Below are positions 11,736 through 25,815 of a stretch of 40,124 nt of DNA, in pieces. Positions within the stretch are counted from its first letter, which is position 1, and each line of letters starts with the position of its first letter. The notes beneath the pieces were generated by a model that saw nothing but the letters and a program-made list of their open reading frames with translations, was not told where the DNA came from and searched no databases. Origin of the DNA: Asaia bogorensis. Lineage in GTDB: Bacteria > Pseudomonadota > Alphaproteobacteria > Reyranellales > Reyranellaceae. Both the position numbers and the translations under genes were made by a program. The stretch covers positions 1 to 40,124 of the forward strand of contig CAMDQJ010000025.1 of assembly GCA_945905835.1 (NCBI GenBank). The letters run 5' to 3'.

Positions 11736-12566
11736 ATGGGTGATTACCTTCGTCCGCATCGCCTGAAAGAGGCGCTAAAAGCCCTCGCCCGCCCACTCAC
11801 CGTGCTGGCTGGCGGCACCGATTTCTATCCGGCGCGCGTCGGACGGTCGATCGACGAGGACGTGCTCGATATCACCGGCATCGTCGAGCTGCGCGGCATC
11901 ACCGCCGGCCCGGACGGCTGGCGCATCGGCGCCACCACCACCTGGAGCGAACTTTTAGAGGCCGATCTGCCGCGCCTGTTCGACGGGCTGAAGCAGGCGG
12001 CGCGCGAGGTCGGCGGCCGCCAGATCCAGAACGCCGGCACCATCGCCGGCAACCTGTGCAACGCCTCGCCCGCCGCCGACGGCGTGCCGGGACTTCTGGC
12101 GCTCGACGCCGAGATCGAGCTGGCCGGCCGCGCCGGCAGCCGCCGGGTGGCGCTTGCCGAGTTCATCACCGGCAACCGCCGCACCACGTTGGCGCCAGGC
12201 GAGCTGGTCGTCGCCATCCACGTCCCGCGACCGGTCCATCCCGCCCACAGCGCTTTCCTGAAACTGGGCGCGCGTCGGTATCTCGTTATTTCCATCGTCA
12301 TGGCCGCGGCGACGATCGAGATCGCGGACGGCAAGGTCGCCCGCGCCCGCGTCGCGGTCGGCGCCTGCTCGGCCGTGGCCAGGCGTCTGCCGTTGCTCGA
12401 AGCGGCGCTGGCCGGCGCGCCGGTCGGCCCGGACCTTGGCAATCTTGTCCATCCCGGCCATATCGGCGGTCTCAGTCCGATCGACGATGTGCGCGGCAGT
12501 GCGGCCTACCGCAACGAGGCGGCCATGGTCGTGCTGCGCCGCCTGCTGGCAGGGTTTTCGCCATGA
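11736..12566 (+). CDS. Molybdenum hydroxylase, FAD-binding subunit (CoxM/XdhB type)
   Basis: This 276-residue subunit would carry FAD and pass electrons from the Fe-S clusters to an acceptor. It has the vanillyl-alcohol-oxidase-type FAD fold of the xanthine dehydrogenase medium chain: VLAGGTDFYP at 23-32 and QNAGTIAGNLCNASPAAD at 98-115, both expected to touch FAD. The CO dehydrogenase FAD-binding C-terminal domain follows, with FLKLGARRYLVISIVMAAA at about 180-200. The stop overlaps the start of the fused Fe-S/Mo subunit (ATGA), so the two proteins are probably made in equal amounts. Related enzymes hydroxylate purines, nicotinate, quinolines and aldehydes; this subunit does not reveal the substrate. 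Confidence 0.93.
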   Translation: MGDYLRPHRLKEALKALARPLTVLAGGTDFYPARVGRSIDEDVLDITGIVELRGITAGPDGWRIGATTTWSELLEADLPRLFDGLKQAAREVGGRQIQNAGTIAGNLCNASPAADGVPGLLALDAEIELAGRAGSRRVALAEFITGNRRTTLAPGELVVAIHVPRPVHPAHSAFLKLGARRYLVISIVMAAATIEIADGKVARARVAVGACSAVARRLPLLEAALAGAPVGPDLGNLVHPGHIGGLSPIDDVRGSAAYRNEAAMVVLRRLLAGFSP

Positions 12567-15280
12567 AGGTGGCCTTCACCCTCAATGGCGCCGCAGCCGA
12601 CTGGAGCGGCCCGCCGGCCACGCGGCTGGCGGCGGCGCTGCGCGACGGGCTCGGTCTCACCGGCACCAAGGTCGGCTGCGATGCCGGCGATTGCGGTGCC
12701 TGCACCGTGCTTTTGGACGGCAAGCAGGTATGCAGTTGCCTCCTCGCCGTGGCCCAGGTCGAGGGCCGCACGGTCGAGACCGTCGAAGGCCTCGCCAACG
12801 GCTGTCTGTCTCGCCTGCAGGAATCCTTTTTGCAGCATGGCGCGGCCCAATGCGGCATCTGCACACCCGGCATGCTGATGGCGGCCGAGGAATTGTTGCG
12901 GCGGTCGGCCAGGCCCGCCCCGGCACCTACTAGGGCCGAGGTCGAGGACGCGCTAGGCGGCGTGCTCTGCCGCTGCACCGGCTACAGCAAGATCGTCGAT
13001 GCCGTGATGGCCGCCGCCGCGCCGGCCGTTGCCATCGTGGCGGCATCGGGCGCGGCGGTCGGCGCGCGCATCATCAGGGTCGACGGCCATGCCAAGGTCA
13101 CGGGTAGCGATCGCTTCGGTGCCGATTCGGTGCCGGCCGACGCGCTGTGGATCCGCGTCGTGCGCTCGCCGCATGCCCGCGCCCGTTTCGAGCTGGGCGA
13201 TCTTTTGCCGCTGCAAAAGCGCCTGACCGCCATCCTCACGGCGGCCGACGTGCCCTTCAACGGCTACGGCATCTATCCCGACATCAAGGACCAGCCGGTG
13301 CTGGCCGATGGCCTGGTGCGCTACCGCGGCGAGGCGGTGCTGGCGCTTCTAGGCGAGCGCGACACGGTGCTTTCGGTACGCGACCAGGAATTGCCGATCC
13401 GCTGGACCGTCGAGCGGCCCTTGTTCGGCATCGATGCTGCGACGGCCAGGGACGCAGCCCTGGTTCAGGCCGACAAGCCGGGCAATCTGCTGCTGAACGG
13501 CGGCGTGACGCGAGGCGATGCCGAGCGGATCTTCGCGCAATGCGCGGCGGTGGCCGAAGGCGTCTTCGAGACCGCTTTTGTCGAGCACGCCTATATCGAG
13601 CCCGAAGCCGGCTGGGCGCGGCGCGTCGGCGACCGCATCGAAATCCACGCCTCGACCCAGACGCCTTACATGGACCGCGACGAGGTCGCGAGCGTGATGC
13701 GCCTGCGGCCCGACCAGATCCGCATCGTGCCGACGGCTTGCGGCGGCGGCTTCGGCGGCAAGCTCGATCTTTCGGTCCAGCCGCTGATCGCGTTGGCGAC
13801 CTGGAAGTTCGGCCGGCCGGCCGCGCTGGTCTACACGCGGCCCGAAAGCATGGCGGCCTCGACCAAGCGCCACCCCGCGCGCGTCACCGCCAAATTCGGC
13901 TGCGATGCAGCCGGCAAGCTTCTGGCCTGCGACGTCACGGCCACCTTCGACACCGGCGCCTATGCCTCGTGGGGGCCGACCGTCGCCAACCGCGTGCCGG
14001 TCCATGCCATGGGTCCTTATGCCGTGCCCAACGTGCGGACCTGGGGCGAGGCGTTCTTCACCAACGGTCCGCCCGCCGGCGCCTTTCGCGGCTTCGGCGT
14101 GCCGCAGGCCGCCATCGCCCATGAGGCGATGATGGACGAACTCGCCGACACACTCGCCATCGACCGACTGGAGTTTCGCGTGCGCAATGCCCTGCGCGCC
14201 GGAGACACCACGGCGACGGGGCAGAAGCTCGAGCACTCGGCGGGGCTGGTTGCCTGCCTCGAAGCGCTGCGGCCGCACTGGAAGCGCGCACATGCGGACG
14301 CGGCTTCGTTCAACGGGACCCGCGGCACCATGCGCCGCGGCGTCGGTGTCGGCTGCATGTGGTACGGCATCGGCAACACCTCGATGTCGAACCCCTCGAC
14401 CATGCGCGTCGGGTTCGGCAAGGACGGCGCGCTCACGCTCTACAGCGGCGCGGTCGATATCGGGCAGGGCAGCAATACCGTGATGATGCAGATCGCCGCC
14501 GATGCGCTTGGCCTGCCGCTGGCGCAGTTCCGGCTGGTGGCCGGCGACACCGACCTGACGGCCGATGCCGGCAAGAGCTCGGCCTCGCGCCAGACCTTCG
14601 TGTCGGGCAAGGCGGCCGAGCTGGCCGGCCTCGACCTGCGGCGGCAGATCCTGCGACTGGCCAATGCCGGCCCCGGGGCGACGCTGGCGCTCGAGGGGAC
14701 CGCTCTCACGGTGCGCGATGGCGGCACGGTGCGCCGGCTTGATCTCAGCCTCACCGGGCCGCTGATGGGCGAGGGCACCTTCGATCCGCCGACAACGCCG
14801 CTCGATGCCCAGGGCCAGGGCGTGCCCTACGCGAGCTACGCCTTCGCCGCCCAGATGGCCGAGGTCGAGGTCGATATGGAGCTCGGCACAGTGAAGGTCT
14901 TGCGCATGGTGGCCGCCCACGACGTCGGCCGGGCGATCAATCCCACCCTGGTCGAGGGCCAGATCGAAGGCGGCATCGCCCAGGGGCTCGGCCTCGCGCT
15001 GATGGAAGAGTACCTGCCGGGCCGCACCGAGAATTTGCACGACTACCTGATCCCGACCGTCGGTGACATGCCGCGGATCGAATGCATCCTGATCGAGGAT
15101 CGTGAGCCGCTGGGCCCGTCCGGCGCCAAGGGTGTCGGCGAGCCCGGCCTGGTGCCGACCGCGCCGGCGATCCTGGGCGCCGTACATCACGCCACCGGCG
15201 TGCGGGCGAGGCGGGTTCCGCTGTTGCCGCACCGCCTGCGCGAGGCCATCGTCGCCCTCCACAAGGGGACCGCAGCATGA
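12563..15280 (+). CDS. Molybdenum hydroxylase, fused [2Fe-2S] and molybdopterin subunit
   Basis: This 905-residue protein joins two parts that are separate subunits in most bacterial Mo hydroxylases. Residues 1-160 hold a plant-type [2Fe-2S] site (C39, C44, C47, C59) and the second cluster (C97, C100, C136, C138), nearly the numbering of the one-chain Desulfovibrio aldehyde oxidoreductase. From about 168 the Mo-cofactor domains follow, with CGGGFGGKLD, PPAGAFRGFGVPQA, and GAKGVGEPG near the end, where the glutamate (about 860) is the expected catalytic base. The AFRGFG loop is of the xanthine-dehydrogenase rather than the CO-dehydrogenase type. The true start is the ATG overlapping the FAD-subunit stop. 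A hydroxylated N-heterocycle is a likely product, inferred from the reductase gene next door. Confidence 0.94.
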   Translation: MKVAFTLNGAAADWSGPPATRLAAALRDGLGLTGTKVGCDAGDCGACTVLLDGKQVCSCLLAVAQVEGRTVETVEGLANGCLSRLQESFLQHGAAQCGICTPGMLMAAEELLRRSARPAPAPTRAEVEDALGGVLCRCTGYSKIVDAVMAAAAPAVAIVAASGAAVGARIIRVDGHAKVTGSDRFGADSVPADALWIRVVRSPHARARFELGDLLPLQKRLTAILTAADVPFNGYGIYPDIKDQPVLADGLVRYRGEAVLALLGERDTVLSVRDQELPIRWTVERPLFGIDAATARDAALVQADKPGNLLLNGGVTRGDAERIFAQCAAVAEGVFETAFVEHAYIEPEAGWARRVGDRIEIHASTQTPYMDRDEVASVMRLRPDQIRIVPTACGGGFGGKLDLSVQPLIALATWKFGRPAALVYTRPESMAASTKRHPARVTAKFGCDAAGKLLACDVTATFDTGAYASWGPTVANRVPVHAMGPYAVPNVRTWGEAFFTNGPPAGAFRGFGVPQAAIAHEAMMDELADTLAIDRLEFRVRNALRAGDTTATGQKLEHSAGLVACLEALRPHWKRAHADAASFNGTRGTMRRGVGVGCMWYGIGNTSMSNPSTMRVGFGKDGALTLYSGAVDIGQGSNTVMMQIAADALGLPLAQFRLVAGDTDLTADAGKSSASRQTFVSGKAAELAGLDLRRQILRLANAGPGATLALEGTALTVRDGGTVRRLDLSLTGPLMGEGTFDPPTTPLDAQGQGVPYASYAFAAQMAEVEVDMELGTVKVLRMVAAHDVGRAINPTLVEGQIEGGIAQGLGLALMEEYLPGRTENLHDYLIPTVGDMPRIECILIEDREPLGPSGAKGVGEPGLVPTAPAILGAVHHATGVRARRVPLLPHRLREAIVALHKGTAA

Positions 15281-16719
15281 GCGACGACATCTCGCTCTCG
15301 CAGGCCGAACGCGACGTCGGCATCGTGCGCTGCGACGCCTGCCCGGTGCTGTGCCGCATCCGCCCCGGCCGTCCCGGCGCCTGCGACCGCTATGCCAACG
15401 AAGGAGGCAAGCTGGTGCGCGTCGACGCGCTGGTGCTTTTGGCCAAGCCCAATCTCGCGCGCGTGGCCTTCATCGAGGGCAGTGCGGCGTGGCGCGGCGA
15501 GCTCGGCAAGGGCGAGGGCGCGTTCGTCACCGGCATCGGCGCCACCACGACCTATCCCGACTACAAGCCGGCGCCCTTCATCGTCTCGTCCAAGCACGAC
15601 GGCGTCGACATGGTCACGGTCGTGACCGAGGGCATCTTTTCGTACTGCGGTGTGAAGGTGAAAATCGACACCGACCGCTACCTCGGGCCCGAACAGGCGG
15701 CGGTGCGGGTGAAGGGCGAGGCGGTCGGCCACGTCACCACGGCCGAGTACGGCTCGCAGATGCTGTCGCTGGGCGGCGTCCATCACCTGACGGGCGGCAG
15801 CAAGAAAGAGGGCGTCGTCACCTGCGAGGCGCTGCTGGCGCTGTGCAACCGCGAGGCCGTCGAGCTCACGATCGACGGCGGGGCGACGGTGGTCGTGCAG
15901 TCGAACAAGGCGCCGATCGTCAACGGCACGGCCGAGGAGCGCATGCGCGTCGGCTGCGGCTCGGCCGCCATCGGCATGTTCGCGCCGCAATGGAAGGACC
16001 ATGTCGACGAGGTCATCGTGGTCGACGACCACATCACCGGCGTTTTAAGCGAGCACCAGGGTGGCGCCTTTCTCGACATGAAGCAGGCCGGTATCCGCGT
16101 GCGCGGCCGCCGCTCGACGCCGGGCCGCTATTTCCAGGTGGCCGAACCGGGGCTGGGCTGGGGTGGCACCGACGTCGCCGACCCGCTGCAGATCATCGAG
16201 AAGATCGACCCCAAGACGGCGTGGCCGGGCCTGCGGTTGCTGATGGTTTCGACCACCGGCGAGCATTCGGCGTGGTTCGAGCTCGACCAGGAACTGAAGC
16301 CGCAGCCCGCGCCCATGCCGGCACCGGTCCGCGCCGTCGTCGAGCGCATCGCCGAGAATTGCGAGCCCGCACTCTGCACCGTGCTGTTCATGGCCGGCGC
16401 CGGAGGCTCGCTGCGCGCCGGCGTCACGGAAAACCCTGTGCGGCTGACGCGCTCGGTGCGCGATACGCTGACCAAGGTGACGCTGGGTGGCACGCCTGCC
16501 TATGTCTGGCCGGGTGGCGGCATCACGCTGATGGTCGATGTCGCACGTATGCCGGAAAAATCCTTCGGCTACGTGCCGACGCCCGCCCTAGTCGCGCCTA
16601 TCGAGTTCACTCTGCGCGCCGACGATTACGCAGCGCTGGGCGGCTACGCCTCGCGCGCCGTTTCCCTCGAATCGGTGTTGCGCGACAACAAGGTGCGCGT
16701 CGACGAGGACGAGCGATGA
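15277..16719 (+). CDS. 6-hydroxynicotinate-reductase-like iron-sulfur protein
   Basis: I recognise this 480-residue protein as the family named after 6-hydroxynicotinate reductase, which in Eubacterium barkeri reduces the hydroxylated pyridine ring to 1,4,5,6-tetrahydro-6-oxonicotinate. Four cysteines near the start (C19, C22, C26, C36; C-x2-C-x3-C-x9-C) would bind an Fe-S cluster. Next come TGIGATTTYPDYKPAPF (85-101), TEGIFSYCGVKVKID (118-131), GCGSAAIGMF, and a C-terminal GGTPAYVWPGGGITLMVDV. It overlaps both neighbours by ATGA. As I recall, the E. barkeri enzyme also carries flavin, reported as covalently bound, which makes the UPF0280 (ApbE-like) gene downstream notable. The activity on nicotinate itself is not shown by the sequence; another heterocycle is equally possible. 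Confidence 0.75.
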   Translation: MSDDISLSQAERDVGIVRCDACPVLCRIRPGRPGACDRYANEGGKLVRVDALVLLAKPNLARVAFIEGSAAWRGELGKGEGAFVTGIGATTTYPDYKPAPFIVSSKHDGVDMVTVVTEGIFSYCGVKVKIDTDRYLGPEQAAVRVKGEAVGHVTTAEYGSQMLSLGGVHHLTGGSKKEGVVTCEALLALCNREAVELTIDGGATVVVQSNKAPIVNGTAEERMRVGCGSAAIGMFAPQWKDHVDEVIVVDDHITGVLSEHQGGAFLDMKQAGIRVRGRRSTPGRYFQVAEPGLGWGGTDVADPLQIIEKIDPKTAWPGLRLLMVSTTGEHSAWFELDQELKPQPAPMPAPVRAVVERIAENCEPALCTVLFMAGAGGSLRAGVTENPVRLTRSVRDTLTKVTLGGTPAYVWPGGGITLMVDVARMPEKSFGYVPTPALVAPIEFTLRADDYAALGGYASRAVSLESVLRDNKVRVDEDER

Positions 16720-17594
16720 TCGGCCCGCAGACCGCGCGCCTGCCCGACGGCCGCCTGCACCTGCAGTACGGCCCGATCGATCTCGTGATCGAAGCCTTCG
16801 GTGGAGTCGAGGAAGTCGCCCGGGCCTATGCCCAGGCGACGGACCGCTTCGCCGACATCCTGCCCGCGCTGGTGCGCGAACTTCCCGTGCTGCGCCGGCC
16901 CGTGGGCGACGCCTATCCGCTGCTGCAAGGCCCCGTCGCGCGCCGCATGGCCGAGGCCGCGTGGCCGCATCGCGCCGTCTACATCACGCCAATGGCGGCG
17001 GTGGCGGGTTCCGTCGCCGACGAGATGCTGGCGGCGATGGTCTGCGGCCGCACGCTCGACAAGGCCTATGTCAACAATGGCGGCGACATCGCGTTTCATC
17101 TTGCGTCCGGCCACAGCCTGCGTGCCGGCATCTTCGTTTCCGCCCTCGACGGCGCCGTGACTCTCACACACGACCAACCGGTGCGCGGCATCGCCACCTC
17201 GGGCTGGGTTGGCCGCTCCTTCTCGCTCGGTATCGCCGATGCCGTGACCGTCCTTGCGGTGAACGCCGCCGCCGCTGACGCCGCTGCAACGGTCGTCGCC
17301 AATGCGGTAAATGCCGATCATCCCGCCATCGAACGCCAGCCGGCGTCGGCCCTGAACCCCGATAGCGATCTCGGCGACCTGCTGGTGACTACTGCGGTCG
17401 GCGACTTGCCGGCCGACCTCGTTGCCCGGGCGCTCGATCAGGGTGCCGCCGAAGCGCGCCGCTTGCGTCTTGGCGGGCTGATCGATGGTGCTGCTCTATC
17501 TCTTAAGGATGAGTGGCGGATAGATATCGAAAAGGTTGTTTCCTCGGGGTACCAAAAATTGGTACAGAGAAGGTTGGAGGTGGCTTATGAGTAA
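16716..17594 (+). CDS. UPF0280 (ApbE-like superfamily) protein
   Basis: This 292-residue protein belongs to UPF0280, an uncharacterised family placed in the ApbE-like structural superfamily; ApbE itself attaches FMN to threonine in target proteins. Visible features are GPIDLVIEAFG near the start, YPLLQGPVARRMAEAAWPH, TPMAAVAGSVADEMLAAMV (about 90-108), AYVNNGGDIAFHLA (about 116-129), and GIATSGWVGRSFSLGIADAVTVLA, all of which recall the nucleotide-binding parts of ApbE. The ATG overlaps the reductase stop. The last 25 or so residues look unlike the rest and run into the promoter-like region of a toxin-antitoxin pair, so the native C-terminus may have been replaced. A role as flavin transferase or maturation factor for the reductase is inference. 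Confidence 0.82.
   Translation: MIGPQTARLPDGRLHLQYGPIDLVIEAFGGVEEVARAYAQATDRFADILPALVRELPVLRRPVGDAYPLLQGPVARRMAEAAWPHRAVYITPMAAVAGSVADEMLAAMVCGRTLDKAYVNNGGDIAFHLASGHSLRAGIFVSALDGAVTLTHDQPVRGIATSGWVGRSFSLGIADAVTVLAVNAAAADAAATVVANAVNADHPAIERQPASALNPDSDLGDLLVTTAVGDLPADLVARALDQGAAEARRLRLGGLIDGAALSLKDEWRIDIEKVVSSGYQKLVQRRLEVAYE
17549..17565. promoter_or_regulatory. Palindromic operator-like site before the antitoxin gene
   Basis: GTACCAA-AAA-TTGGTAC is a perfect inverted repeat with 7-bp arms, 21 bp upstream of the parD-like ATG and inside the 3' end of the UPF0280 frame. RHH antitoxins such as ParD typically bind short palindromes at their own promoter, so this is the likely autoregulatory site. 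The surrounding 60 bp are more AT-rich than the flanking operon. Confidence 0.65.
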
Positions 17595-17823
17595 AAACAC
17601 ATCCTTTAGCCTCGGCGACCATTTCATCTCGTTCATCACTTCGAAGGTCGAAGAAGGCCGGTACGGCTCTGCCAGCGACGTGGTTCGTGCGGGCTTGCGC
17701 CTCCTTGAAGAGGAGGAGGCAAAACTATCGGCCCTGCGCGCGGCTCTCGACGAAGGTGAGGCGAGCGGCCAGGCGACACCGTTCGATTTCGAGCGCTTCA
17801 TCAAGCGCAAGCGCAAGGCCTAG
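17587..17823 (+). CDS. parD: Type II antitoxin, ParD/RHH family
   Basis: This 78-residue protein matches short ParD-type antitoxins: a ribbon strand SFSLGDHFISFITSKVEEG followed by the helix YGSASDVVRAGLRLLEEEEAKLSALRAAL, and a disordered basic tail (FERFIKRKRKA) that would wrap the toxin. The ATG at 17587 follows TTGGAGG. It overlaps the UPF0280 stop by 8 bp, and the toxin gene starts 11 bp after its stop. It would neutralise the ParE-like toxin and repress the pair through the palindrome upstream. The pair interrupts an otherwise tightly coupled catabolic operon. Confidence 0.9.
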   Translation: MSKNTSFSLGDHFISFITSKVEEGRYGSASDVVRAGLRLLEEEEAKLSALRAALDEGEASGQATPFDFERFIKRKRKA

Positions 17824-17834
17824 ACGATCTTGTC

Positions 17835-18125
17835 ATGGCGCGCTTCGTTCTTTCGCCGCGCGCGCAGGCCGACATCGACGAGATCTGGAACTACACAGTT
17901 GAACGATGGGGTGTTGAGCAGGCGGAACTCTACGTACGGCAACTTGGAAGTGCTGTGGAAGCGATCGCCCAGGATCCGAAGCGTGGTTGGCCGTGCGACG
18001 AAATTCGCAAGGGCTATCGCCGATATCCGAGCGGATCGCATGTCGTGTTCTATCGAGTAATGACGAAGGAAGTCATCGTGGTGCGCGTCCTGCATCAACG
18101 TATGGACTTCAATCGCCACGTTTGA
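17835..18125 (+). CDS. parE: Type II toxin, ParE/RelE superfamily
   Basis: This 96-residue protein has the ParE fold: RFVLSPRAQADIDEIWNYTVERWG at the N-terminus (helical hairpin), YVRQLGSAVEAIAQDPKRG in the middle, and strands GYRRYPSGSHVVFYRV and VIVVRVLHQRMDFNRHV at the end. The last two are the hallmark of the family. ParE toxins poison DNA gyrase, while RelE relatives cut mRNA on the ribosome; the sequence resembles the ParE side, but the target is inferred. It directly follows the ParD-like gene, and the AA_synth gene begins 10 bp after its stop, so readthrough into the rest of the catabolic operon is likely. Confidence 0.9.
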   Translation: MARFVLSPRAQADIDEIWNYTVERWGVEQAELYVRQLGSAVEAIAQDPKRGWPCDEIRKGYRRYPSGSHVVFYRVMTKEVIVVRVLHQRMDFNRHV

Positions 18126-18135
18126 AGGTAAATTA

Positions 18136-18723
18136 ATGAGCGACCTGGTAAAACTCCGCAAATACGTCGGCATGGTCGAGGAAACGCACCACGATGGCGG
18201 TGCCGTGCTGGCCAAGCCCGTGCGCAAGGCGGTGATGGGTGGCGTGATCGCCAATCCCTATGCTGGCCGCTACGTCGAGGACATCCAGCCGATGCTGAAG
18301 GCGCTGGAGCCGCTGGCCATCGATCTTACCCAGCGCGTCATGAAGCTGCTGGGCGCGGCCGGCCCGGAGCTAGAGGCCTACGGCAAGAGCGCCATCGTCG
18401 GCATTGCGGGCGAGCTGGAACATGCCGCGATGTGGCACCAGCCGTCGGGCTTCGGCATCCGCCAGGCCATGGGCGGCGCCAAGTCGATCGTGCCGTCGAC
18501 CGTGAAGGTCGCGACGGCCGGCGCGCGCATCGACATTCCGCTGCATCACGTGACGGCGGCCTACGTGCGCAGCCACTACGACGCCATCGAATTCTCCGTG
18601 CCGGACGGGCCGCGGCCCGACGAGATCGTGTTCATCGTCGCCGCCGCCATTGGCGGGCGGCCGCACGCGCGGGTCGGCGGGCTCACCGTCGAGGGCATCA
18701 AGGTGGGGGATGGCCAGCGATGA
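18136..18723 (+). CDS. Amino acid synthesis family protein (AA_synth, DUF1185)
   Basis: This 195-residue protein belongs to the AA_synth family (DUF1185, PF06684), whose biochemical role is not established despite its name. Typical stretches are RKYVGMVEETHHDGGAVL at the start, RKAVMGGVIANPYAGRYVEDI (about 31-52), YGKSAIVGIAGELEHAAMWH (about 79-99), and IDIPLHHVTAAYVRSHYDA (about 133-152). The conserved His and Glu residues (EETHH, GELEHAA) could form an active site. It has no signal peptide. It overlaps the next gene by ATGA and lies between the Mo hydroxylase/reductase genes and the importer, so it probably works in the same pathway; hydrolysis or isomerisation of a ring-derived intermediate is a guess. 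Confidence 0.85.
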   Translation: MSDLVKLRKYVGMVEETHHDGGAVLAKPVRKAVMGGVIANPYAGRYVEDIQPMLKALEPLAIDLTQRVMKLLGAAGPELEAYGKSAIVGIAGELEHAAMWHQPSGFGIRQAMGGAKSIVPSTVKVATAGARIDIPLHHVTAAYVRSHYDAIEFSVPDGPRPDEIVFIVAAAIGGRPHARVGGLTVEGIKVGDGQR

Positions 18724-23063: not shown

Positions 23064-23764
23064 TGCTCCAGGTGAAGGACCTGCACGCCTATTACGGTCG
23101 CGCCCATATCCTCGACGGCGTCTCGCTGGAAGCCAACGCCGGCGAGGTCGTGGCGCTGCTTGGCCGCAACGGTGCCGGCAAGTCGACCGCCATGAAGGCC
23201 ATCATGGGCCTGGTGCCGCCCGCCAAGGGCGAGGTGACATTTGCCGGTGCTCGTATCGACCGTCTGGCACCCTACCGTATCGCGCGGTTGGGCCTCGGCT
23301 ACGTGCCGGAAGACCGCCGCATCTTCACCGAGCTGTCGGTCGCCGAAAACCTCGAAGTCGGCCGCCAATCCGCCCGCGCCGGCGCGCCACTGTGGACCGA
23401 GCAAAAGCTCTTCGCGCTCTTCCCCAACCTTGCCGAGATGCGCGATCGGCCGGGCGGGCGCATGTCGGGCGGCGAGCAACAGATGCTGACCATCGCCCGG
23501 ACCCTGATGGGCAACCCGCGCTGCGTGCTTCTGGACGAGCCGTCGGAGGGCCTGGCGCCGATCATCGTCGAGCAGATGGCGCATTCCATCAAGGCGCTGA
23601 AGGGCGAAGGGCTGTGCGTTCTGCTGTCCGAACAGAACCTGCATTTCTCGTCCGCCGTGGCCGATCGCGCCTATATCATCGAGAAGGGCCGCATCCGCTT
23701 CGGCGGATCGATGGCCGAGCTGGCGTCTGACGCTTCCCTTCGTGAACAGTATCTTTCGGTTTGA
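23063..23764 (+). CDS. ABC transporter ATP-binding protein, LivF type
   Basis: This 233-residue ATPase is the second nucleotide-binding subunit of the LIV-type importer. Motifs are Walker A GRNGAGKST (about 34-42), VPEDRRIFTELSVAENL (LivF-typical, about 85-101), the signature MSGGEQQMLTIARTLM, Walker B CVLLDEPSEGLAP, and SEQNLHFSSAVADRAYIIEKG at the end, where LivF proteins carry SEQN in place of the switch histidine. The start shares one base with the stop of the LivG-type gene. The HyuA-type gene starts 2 bp after its stop, tying the importer to the metabolic genes. Confidence 0.94.
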   Translation: MLQVKDLHAYYGRAHILDGVSLEANAGEVVALLGRNGAGKSTAMKAIMGLVPPAKGEVTFAGARIDRLAPYRIARLGLGYVPEDRRIFTELSVAENLEVGRQSARAGAPLWTEQKLFALFPNLAEMRDRPGGRMSGGEQQMLTIARTLMGNPRCVLLDEPSEGLAPIIVEQMAHSIKALKGEGLCVLLSEQNLHFSSAVADRAYIIEKGRIRFGGSMAELASDASLREQYLSV

Positions 23765-23766
23765 CC

Positions 23767-25815
23767 ATGGCTTCTGGACGCACCCTCACGGTCGGCATCG
23801 ATGTCGGCGGCACCTTCACCGACCTCTTGGCCATCGACACCGAATCGGGTGCCGTGCGCCTGGCCAAGGTGCCGACCACCATCGACAATCAGGCCATCGG
23901 CTTCATGGCGGCCCTCGCCGAGGCCGGCGTCGATCCCGTTCAGCTGCAGGCCGTGGTGCATGGCACGACCACGACGACCAACGCGCTGCTCGAACGCAAG
24001 ATCGCCCGGGTCGGCCTCATCACCACCAAAGGTTTCCGCGACGTGCTGGAACTCGGCCGCCGCACCCGCCCGCAATCCTACGGCCTGCGCGGCACCTTCC
24101 GGCCGCTGATCGATCGCGAGTATCGCCTCGAGGTCGCCGAGCGCATGGACGCCGACGGCAAGGTCATAACGGCGCTCGACGAGTCGGCCGTCGCCGAGGC
24201 GGCGAAAAAGCTTCTGGCGATGGGCTGCGAGGCCGTGGTGATCCACTTCCTGCACAGCTATATCAATTCCGCGCACGAGCGCCGCGCCGCCGAGATCGTG
24301 CGCGGCCTGTGGCCCAACCCCTACGTTACCGCCGGTCACGCCATCCTGTCGGAATACCGCGAGTACGAACGCGGCGTGACGGCGGCAGTCAACGCCTCGG
24401 TGCAGCCGGTGCTCGACCGCTACCTCACACGCCTGCGCACCGAACTCTCGGCCAAGGGTTTCGACCACGACATCCTGGTGATGCAGGGCAATGGCGGCAT
24501 CATCTCGTCGCGCCTGATCGCGGCGACGGCGGTCAACACCGTGATGTCGGGTCCCGCCTCGGGCGTCATGGCGGCGGCCTATACCGGTCGCGCCTCGGGC
24601 CATCCCAACCTCATCACCTACGACATGGGCGGCACCTCGACCGATGTCGGCCTGATCGAAGGCGCCGTACCGCAGGTCTCGGGCGAACTCGAGCTCGAAT
24701 ACGCCATGCCCATCCACGTGCCGATGGTCGACGTGCACACCATCGGCGCCGGTGGCGGCTCGATCGCCGCGCTCGATTCGGCCGGCATGCTGCGCGTCGG
24801 CCCGGAAAGCGCCGGCGCCCGGCCCGGCCCGATCTGCTACGGCCGTGGCGGCAGCGAACCCACCATCACCGATGCCAACCTCGTGCTGGGCCGCCTCAAC
24901 CCCGACAAGCTTCTGGGCGTCGACCATCCCGTGACGCTCGACCATGTGCGCGGCCTGATCCTGGAGAAGGTCGGCAAGAGCCTCGGCCTCGACGCCGAAG
25001 CGGCCGCCGCCGCCATCCTGCGCATCGCCAACGACCGCATGGCCGGCGCCATGCGCCTGGTCTCGCTGTCGCGCGGCCACGATCCGCGCGACTTCGCGCT
25101 GTTCGCTTTCGGCGGCGCCGGGCCGCTGCACGCCACGGCGCTCGCCCGCGAGCTCGCCATCCCGACCGTGCTGGTGCCGGCGCGGCCCGGCATCACCAAT
25201 GCGCTGGGCTGCGTCGTGGCCGACTTGCGCCACGACTATGTGCGCACGGTGAACAAGCCCCTCTCCGCATTGAAGGACGAGGACGTGTCGAAGATCTACG
25301 CCGCCCAAGGCGAGGAGGGCGCCGTCACCCTGAAGCGTGAAGGCGTGCCGGTGCGCGAGGTCCGCCGTGTCTATTCCGCCGACATGCAGTTCCAGGGCCA
25401 GAGCCACATCCTCTCCGTCGGCGTCGAGCGGCCCGACATCGGCGTCGAAGGCCTGCGCAAGGCCTTCGCCGTGGCCTACGACCGCCGATTCGGCATCGAA
25501 CTGGCGGAAATCCCGCCGGTGCTGGTCAATCTCCACACCGCCGTGATCGGCGTGCGGCCGGAGATTTCGCTCGAGGTGTTGGGCGCCGGCAAGCGCGAGC
25601 CGACGCTGAAGGCCGCGCAACTGGGCGAGCGCCGCGTCTGGTTCAGCGACGGCTGGCACCAGACGCCGGTCTATGCCCGCGACAAGCTCCCGCTCGATTC
25701 AGTGTTCACCGGCCCGGCCATTCTCGAGCAGCTCGACTGCACCACCGTCGTCGAGCCCGGCGATCGCGTCACCCAGGACAAGCTCGGCAATCTGCTCATA
25801 ACGGTAAAACCATGA
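23767..25815 (+). CDS. Hydantoinase/oxoprolinase family protein, HyuA type
   Basis: HyuA-type proteins are the ATP-using subunits of N-methylhydantoinase, 5-oxoprolinase and acetone-carboxylase-like enzymes; they open cyclic amides with ATP help. The 682-residue protein starts VGIDVGGTFTDLLAID (phosphate-binding loop), then VVHGTTTTTNALLERK, FRDVLELGRRTRPQSY, the central DMGGTSTDVGLI and IGAGGGSIA, and FGGAGPLHATALARELAIP. I use the ATG at 23767; a TTG at 23761 overlaps the previous stop. These proteins usually pair with a HyuB subunit encoded next to them, but none is present here; an enolase-family gene follows instead with an ATGA overlap. The substrate is likely a lactam or imide, by inference. 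Confidence 0.92.
   Translation: MASGRTLTVGIDVGGTFTDLLAIDTESGAVRLAKVPTTIDNQAIGFMAALAEAGVDPVQLQAVVHGTTTTTNALLERKIARVGLITTKGFRDVLELGRRTRPQSYGLRGTFRPLIDREYRLEVAERMDADGKVITALDESAVAEAAKKLLAMGCEAVVIHFLHSYINSAHERRAAEIVRGLWPNPYVTAGHAILSEYREYERGVTAAVNASVQPVLDRYLTRLRTELSAKGFDHDILVMQGNGGIISSRLIAATAVNTVMSGPASGVMAAAYTGRASGHPNLITYDMGGTSTDVGLIEGAVPQVSGELELEYAMPIHVPMVDVHTIGAGGGSIAALDSAGMLRVGPESAGARPGPICYGRGGSEPTITDANLVLGRLNPDKLLGVDHPVTLDHVRGLILEKVGKSLGLDAEAAAAAILRIANDRMAGAMRLVSLSRGHDPRDFALFAFGGAGPLHATALARELAIPTVLVPARPGITNALGCVVADLRHDYVRTVNKPLSALKDEDVSKIYAAQGEEGAVTLKREGVPVREVRRVYSADMQFQGQSHILSVGVERPDIGVEGLRKAFAVAYDRRFGIELAEIPPVLVNLHTAVIGVRPEISLEVLGAGKREPTLKAAQLGERRVWFSDGWHQTPVYARDKLPLDSVFTGPAILEQLDCTTVVEPGDRVTQDKLGNLLITVKP

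Follow-up and report, generated by a model that had tools for sequence, protein, structure and literature searches.

A UPF0280/COG2122 protein with an ApbE fold is a likely dedicated maturation factor of 6-hydroxynicotinate reductase

The window analysed here is the whole 40,124-nucleotide stretch of contig CAMDQJ010000025.1 (assembly GCA_945905835.1, labelled Asaia bogorensis), which carries on its forward strand a gene for a 6-hydroxynicotinate reductase homologue followed by a gene for a UPF0280 (COG2122) protein. An earlier note on this DNA had proposed that UPF0280, as a member of the ApbE-like superfamily, is the flavin transferase or maturase of the reductase, and had pointed to a four-base overlap between the two genes, which is present as an ATGA. 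The pair is laid out as follows.

15277..16719, + strand: 6-hydroxynicotinate reductase homologue, an open reading frame of 480 residues with plasmid homologues that are 64-71% identical
16716..17594, + strand: UPF0280/COG2122 protein with an ApbE fold, 292 residues, ATG at 16716 and TAA at 17594, 370.6 bits against NF003322
16716..16719, + strand: ATGA start/stop overlap of reductase and UPF0280, read from the sequence

The score of the second gene product against NCBIfam NF003322 (PRK04334), for which the cut-off is 290 bits, places it in the UPF0280/COG2122 family. The first exceeds no Pfam cut-off and matches nothing in NCBIfam at E 0.1; it owes its name to its plasmid homologues, 17 of 26 of which are annotated as 6-hydroxynicotinate reductase, and to the homologue from Bradyrhizobiaceae SG-6C, which is reported to share 42% identity with the enzyme of E. 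barkeri (PMC3511419).

The two genes were found to occur together. We searched 299 Pseudomonadota genomes, drawn across the phylum, with the reductase and with UPF0280. The reductase gave 22 matches, of which 21 were full length or nearly so (in two frames in genome G016); the other, in G072, covers residues 14-47 only and was discarded as a fragment without a Pfam match. UPF0280 gave 23 matches, 21 of them real, the two in G253 and G162 falling in a GNAT and a choice-of-anchor protein. Both sets of 21 are the identical genomes, from 8 genera and 8 families going by their labels (G072 being left out), and each of them has its two matches on one strand, separated by less than 0.6 kb. When searched with a profile of 78 UPF0280 sequences, the draw yielded the same 21 genomes, along with weak partial matches of about 60 residues in G235 and G293 (E 7e-4 and 2e-4, respectively). 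We then scanned 84,980 species genomes for the reductase and analysed the loci of the best 80 of 588 relatives. UPF0280 was present in 76 of these 80 loci and in all three plasmid loci, on the same strand every time. Two of the four remaining loci end 129 and 763 bases past the reductase match, and all four genomes carry UPF0280 elsewhere; in G313 the matches are partial and split between two contigs. UPF0280 was also found on 26 of 26 plasmids bearing the reductase; since the genomes share ancestry and the cluster travels as a unit, these counts do not represent independent events. A reductase lacking UPF0280, the case that the earlier note had named as speaking against its proposal, was thus looked for in 299 genomes, 80 loci and 26 plasmids, all from Pseudomonadota going by the available labels, and was not found. 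The viral contigs scanned gave no match.

With start codons chosen by script, the 76 loci comparable for spacing comprise 31 with a four-base overlap, 9 with another overlap, 22 with 0-60 bases between the genes, 4 with 61-300 and 10 with more. One plasmid, from Hydrogenophaga BPS33 (locus L145, NZ_CP044550.1, 21219-43773), carries UPF0280 in four places and no reductase; there the gene lies in repeated blocks flanked by IS1071, with a Rieske protein and tripartite transporter proteins, and may be a relic.

The relation of UPF0280 to ApbE is firm, both in profile and in fold comparisons, in line with the earlier assignment to the ApbE-like superfamily. Alignment of 78 UPF0280 with 35 ApbE sequences by hhalign gave a probability of 95.6 and an E value of 1.3e-8 over UPF0280 residues 97-194. 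The predicted structure of UPF0280 has a mean predicted local distance difference test score (pLDDT) of 94.0, and in a VIA comparison its top match was 2o34_B (Z 20.1), which we take to be DVU1097, a COG2122 protein. ApbE, Ftp and FmnB followed at Z 13.7-15.8, the match spanning at least residues 10-271, ApbE (1vrm) at Z 15.8 with a root-mean-square deviation of 3.1 over 205 aligned residues, and other T-folds at Z 7.7 and below. Among the latter are T-folds that bind planar heterocycles (urate oxidase and GTP cyclohydrolase IB, Z 6.3-7.7), which, together with a gene order alongside a ring-opening pathway, would suit a catalytic or substrate-binding partner, either a subunit of the reductase or the next enzyme, whose pocket binds the pyridine ring or 1,4,5,6-tetrahydro-6-oxonicotinate. 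We regard such a partner as quite unlikely, however, as the Z scores of ApbE, Ftp and FmnB are about double those of the other T-folds and a Z under 8 may reflect a common arrangement only. Furthermore, the COG2122 family serves homocysteine synthesis too, where there is no such substrate.

The pocket of UPF0280 retains several residues of the ApbE active site. The catalytic centre is formed by Ser241, His257 and Asp285 in V. cholerae ApbE and by their counterparts Ser257, His273 and Asp301 in FmnB, as published (PMC12052999 and PMC8906456, respectively), and we mapped residues by this published spacing (Ser, +16 His, +44 Asp). The 35 ApbE control rows keep it, with Ser in 33, His in 33, Asp in 32 and Thr at Asp+4 in 33; two rows are gapped. 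Three segments of UPF0280 carry the counterparts.

17070..17087, + strand: VNNGGD (residues 119-124), counterpart of the ApbE GGE/GGD motif; N120, G123 and D124 in 78 of 78 sequences, G122 in 76 of 78
17196..17222, + strand: TSGWVGRSF (residues 161-169); S162, corresponding to the ApbE catalytic Ser, in 78 of 78; R167, at Ser+5, in 77 of 78
17277..17291, + strand: DAAAT (residues 188-192); D188, corresponding to the ApbE Mg-ligand Asp, in 78 of 78; T192 at Asp+4

The position of T192 is occupied by Thr in 75 and by Ser in 3 of the 78 sequences.

On the side of the reductase, the string TGIGATT had been singled out as the nearest approach to an ApbE target site and is indeed found at residues 85-91, within a conserved loop.

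15529..15567, + strand: loop T85-K97 (TGIGATTTYPDYK) of the reductase, the earlier candidate site; T91-T92-Y93 and D95-K97 invariant in 65 sequences, T90 variable

Thr90 and Thr91 had been suggested as flavin sites. Thr90 was rejected, since this position is Gly in 55, Thr in 13 and Ser in 1 of 69 relatives; Thr91 is conserved, and so is T92, both being Thr in 68 of the 69 (one gap) and invariant in a cleaned alignment of 65. The loop has the consensus [VI]-T-[GA]-[IV]-G-[AS]-[GT]-T-T-Y-P-D-Y-K-P, and T92 would fall at the modified position if the majority form [AS]-G-T-T were aligned, in an assumed register, to the ApbE target [S/T]-G-A-[S/T]. Despite its invariance the loop around T91 and T92 was modelled with low confidence (block means of pLDDT 61-65), as can happen when a cofactor is missing from the model. 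A second ApbE-like string, TGG[ST]K at residues 172-176, was retained as a weak option only, residue 175 being Ser in 56, Thr in 5, Gly in 3 and Ala in 1 of 65. A standard ApbE is not required for the pair, because the assembly to which the window belongs (96.5% complete) has no PF02424 match at E 0.001 and because, in a search of 100 genomes for ApbE, two of the seven pair genomes (G000 and G035) lacked it; the other five had at least one match. In the open-licence literature no paper was found with UPF0280, with hydroxynicotinate and ApbE, or with 6-hydroxynicotinate and "covalently bound flavin".

UPF0280 is thus likely to be a dedicated maturation factor of 6-hydroxynicotinate reductase; that it is a partner devoted to this enzyme, with maturation as the larger part of its role, we hold to be very probable. 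Covalent transfer of flavin mononucleotide (FMN) is the best single candidate mechanism, put forward tentatively, at a little under an even chance. The argument leans on the covalent flavin that the E. barkeri reductase is reported to contain (Alhapel 2006). We infer a mechanism, from ligand and transfer to target residue and substitute base, in which UPF0280, presumably in the cytosol, would hold flavin adenine dinucleotide (FAD) and Mg2+ in an ApbE-type pocket formed by D188, T192, S162, N120/GGD and R167 and would pass FMN to a hydroxyl of the freshly made reductase, in a variant of the ApbE reaction. The acceptor would most plausibly be T92 or T91 of the invariant TTYPDYKP loop, and the base, for which UPF0280 has no His, could be supplied by the client (e.g. 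by the invariant K97 or D95) or by another residue of UPF0280. The pairing (21 of 21 genomes, 76 of 80 loci, 26 of 26 plasmids) strongly supports the tie of UPF0280 to the reductase, and the likeness to ApbE speaks for flavin transfer; the missing His, Lys and target motif speak against such transfer.

Several observations weigh against flavin transfer by UPF0280. Its score against the Pfam ApbE family (PF02424) lies below the gathering cut-off (11.6 versus 25.6 bits, E 0.2). In the hhalign alignment, the region of the general-base His (SHIIDPRTG in ApbE, after the Ser) is deleted, leaving the Asp-Ser-His centre incomplete in UPF0280: Asp and Ser are found in 78 of 78 sequences and the His stretch is gone, while each of the 33 ApbE control rows ungapped there has the His. 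The column of the pocket Lys (FmnB Lys190), which lies at the alignment edge, is Ala in 78 of 78 UPF0280 sequences. So is the position at Asp+3, as in 14 of 35 ApbE rows; in FmnB this is Ser304, a further side-chain ligand of Mg (PMC8906456). The same study reports that K190A and H273A abrogate FmnB activity (PMC8906456); H257G only lowers the activity of V. cholerae ApbE (PMC12052999). Because Asp, Thr, Ser and GGD stay and His and Lys are gone, the part of the pocket that handles Mg and pyrophosphate remains largely intact and the acid-base part is missing. The pocket Lys is not universal among ApbE proteins (26 of 35 rows have K, 3 have Q and 2 have A), and judged from these alignments its loss is less telling, the loss of the His being the main objection. 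As for the acceptor, none of 65 reductases contains the full ApbE motif Dxx[ST]G[AV][ST]; [ST]G[AV][ST] is found in 4, scattered, and [ST]G[AVGS][ST] in 59, as TGG[ST] at residues 172-175. Many flavoproteins carry covalent flavin that is attached without an enzyme. Loss of the pocket Lys and of the His, which in ApbE acts on the acceptor Thr, and absence of the full target motif would be expected if the flavin were self-attached, or absent in the Pseudomonadota branch, and if UPF0280 bound or hydrolysed FAD or another dinucleotide for cofactor supply or regulation. A strict one-to-one pairing with one enzyme nevertheless exceeds the need of a general flavin supply, which makes this explanation distinctly improbable.

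A further difficulty comes from the role of COG2122 elsewhere. According to published work, COG2122 of D. vulgaris and M. acetivorans (MA1715 in the latter) acts with DUF39 and a NIL/ferredoxin protein in homocysteine synthesis; COG2122 mutants of D. vulgaris are rescued by methionine, their fitness correlates with that of the DUF39 gene (r = 0.98), and Rauch and colleagues have suggested a persulfide role (PMC5764234). The homologue MA1715 is termed a sulfur trafficking protein in another paper (PMC12068725). UPF0280 might accordingly be a maturase of a different kind, delivering sulfur to the reductase or assembling its Fe-S clusters, a role that has been proposed for COG2122 together with DUF39 and SepCysS. 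Both clients would then have reductive, ferredoxin-linked chemistry in common. In agreement with this, the reductase has 8 conserved Cys, and M. jannaschii and M. acetivorans, two of the 14 control genomes, match both DUF39 and COG2122, the latter below the curated cut-off (E up to 0.001). Another of these, S. elongatus, matches DUF39 only. UPF0280 of the present clade, however, has no conserved Cys (the best column has Cys in 36 of 78 proteins, and 9 of the 78 lack Cys altogether), which makes it an improbable carrier of persulfide on its own Cys, and the residues that it retains handle Mg and phosphate in ApbE. We consider sulfur or Fe-S delivery somewhat unlikely. DUF39 (PF01837) was found in none of the 299 Pseudomonadota genomes, suggesting that the COG2122 family here took, or kept, another client.

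Half of the conserved Cys of the reductase form an N-terminal motif.

15331..15384, + strand: N-terminal Cys motif C19-C22-C26-C36 of the reductase; each Cys in 65 of 65 aligned sequences

This motif is likely an Fe-S site. The others are C124, C227 and C362 (65 of 65) and C183 (64 of 65). The pattern CxxCPxxCxIxxGxxGACxRYxN may resemble the Cys motif of some radical-SAM/AMMECR1-linked proteins. Comparison of the reductase model with known folds gave a best E of 0.013 with Foldseek and a best Z of 5.3 with VIA, which does not prove a new fold. The lone repeated hint is a resemblance of residues about 124-211 (window 15649-15909) to the C-terminal barrel of GcvT: Pfam GCV_T_C matches 62 of 65 reductases at E up to 10 (best E 1.5e-5), and the VIA match has Z 5.3 over 65 residues. 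In G016 the reductase (C1 2969805-2971201; loci L021 and L023) is split into two overlapping frames, and the UPF0280 beside it is one open frame.

The reductase gene also adjoins, by Pfam matches, genes of a xanthine-dehydrogenase-type molybdenum (Mo) enzyme, and further genes of the pathway surround the pair.

11736..12566, + strand: FAD subunit of a xanthine-dehydrogenase-type hydroxylase (PF00941, PF03450)
12560..15280, + strand: fused [2Fe-2S]/Mo subunit of the same hydroxylase (Fer2, Fer2_2, MoCoBD_1, MoCoBD_2); start approximate, the open reading frame being listed from 12056
17536..18125, + strand: ParD/ParE toxin-antitoxin pair (PF03693, PF05016), between UPF0280 and AA_synth
18136..18723, + strand: AA_synth (PF06684) protein, the next pathway gene, 225.5 bits

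The start of the reductase gene overlaps the last four bases of the [2Fe-2S]/Mo subunit gene, and the hydroxylase is likely a nicotinate dehydrogenase. Its proximity bears on the identity of the client. Among 83 loci, 57 have 5 kb or more of sequence on either side; 56 of these carry UPF0280, 54 the Mo subunit, 50 the FAD subunit, 44 AA_synth and 27 the hydantoinase-like gene (see below). UPF0280 is therefore separated from the Mo subunit only weakly (56 versus 54 of 57), and the hydroxylase may be its client, which adds to the reservations above. Three loci (L118, L128 and L050) have UPF0280 and no match to the Mo subunit, although the Mo enzyme may lie elsewhere. AA_synth, in contrast, is clearly separated from the pair of UPF0280 and reductase: its family occurs in 41 of the 299 genomes, that is in 20 of the 21 pair genomes and in 21 genomes without the pair.

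UPF0280 and AA_synth are directly adjacent in eight close relatives; in the window ParD/ParE intervenes, and no such pair was found at this position in the loci of relatives. The final 20 or so residues of the window's UPF0280 are unlike those of its relatives and were predicted with low confidence. Also in the cluster, at 23761-25815, is a hydantoinase/oxoprolinase-like gene (Pfam Hydantoinase_A; NCBIfam caprolactamase alpha below cut-off), whose product, at a guess, may stand in for an enamidase in opening the lactam ring. Also downstream, Pfam matches indicate a branched-chain amino acid-type ABC transporter. Overall, the arrangement resembles the nicotinate cluster of aerobic Alphaproteobacteria.

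UPF0280/COG2122 is a conserved family with a published genetic role and, in the literature examined, no proven biochemical activity. The client described here was never found without UPF0280 and occurs in aerobic, easily handled bacteria, so that the activity of UPF0280 could be tested directly at the bench. Flavin transfer by UPF0280, if true, would extend the range of known flavin transferases past the standard motif and the catalytic His and would hint at a cofactor in the DUF39 pathways of homocysteine and coenzyme M. A bolder view, which we consider unlikely, is that the family forms a second class of covalent-cofactor transferase, cytosolic, devoid of the ApbE His and directed at T-T-Y-P-D-Y-K-P, with two unrelated clients: 6-hydroxynicotinate reductase in aerobes and the DUF39/COG1900 sulfur insertion system in methanogens and sulfate reducers. 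The latter system would then carry an overlooked covalent cofactor.

Compared with ApbE, Ftp and FmnB (PF02424), UPF0280 shares the fold over nearly its whole chain and differs in having, by eye, no lipoprotein leader. It resembles FmnB in the Arg at Ser+5, which is present in just 12 of 35 ApbE rows. Its closest counterpart of known structure is 2o34 (presumably DVU1097), which also ranks first among PDB entries by sequence (E 1e-11), likewise lacks the His stretch and keeps ADAAAT. The systems of DVU1097 and MA1715 differ from the present one in being linked to DUF39 and homocysteine synthesis. As for the client, the window reductase, with its 8 conserved Cys, can be set beside the E. barkeri enzyme (Hnr), to which the SG-6C homologue is 42% identical and which reportedly contains three Fe-S clusters.

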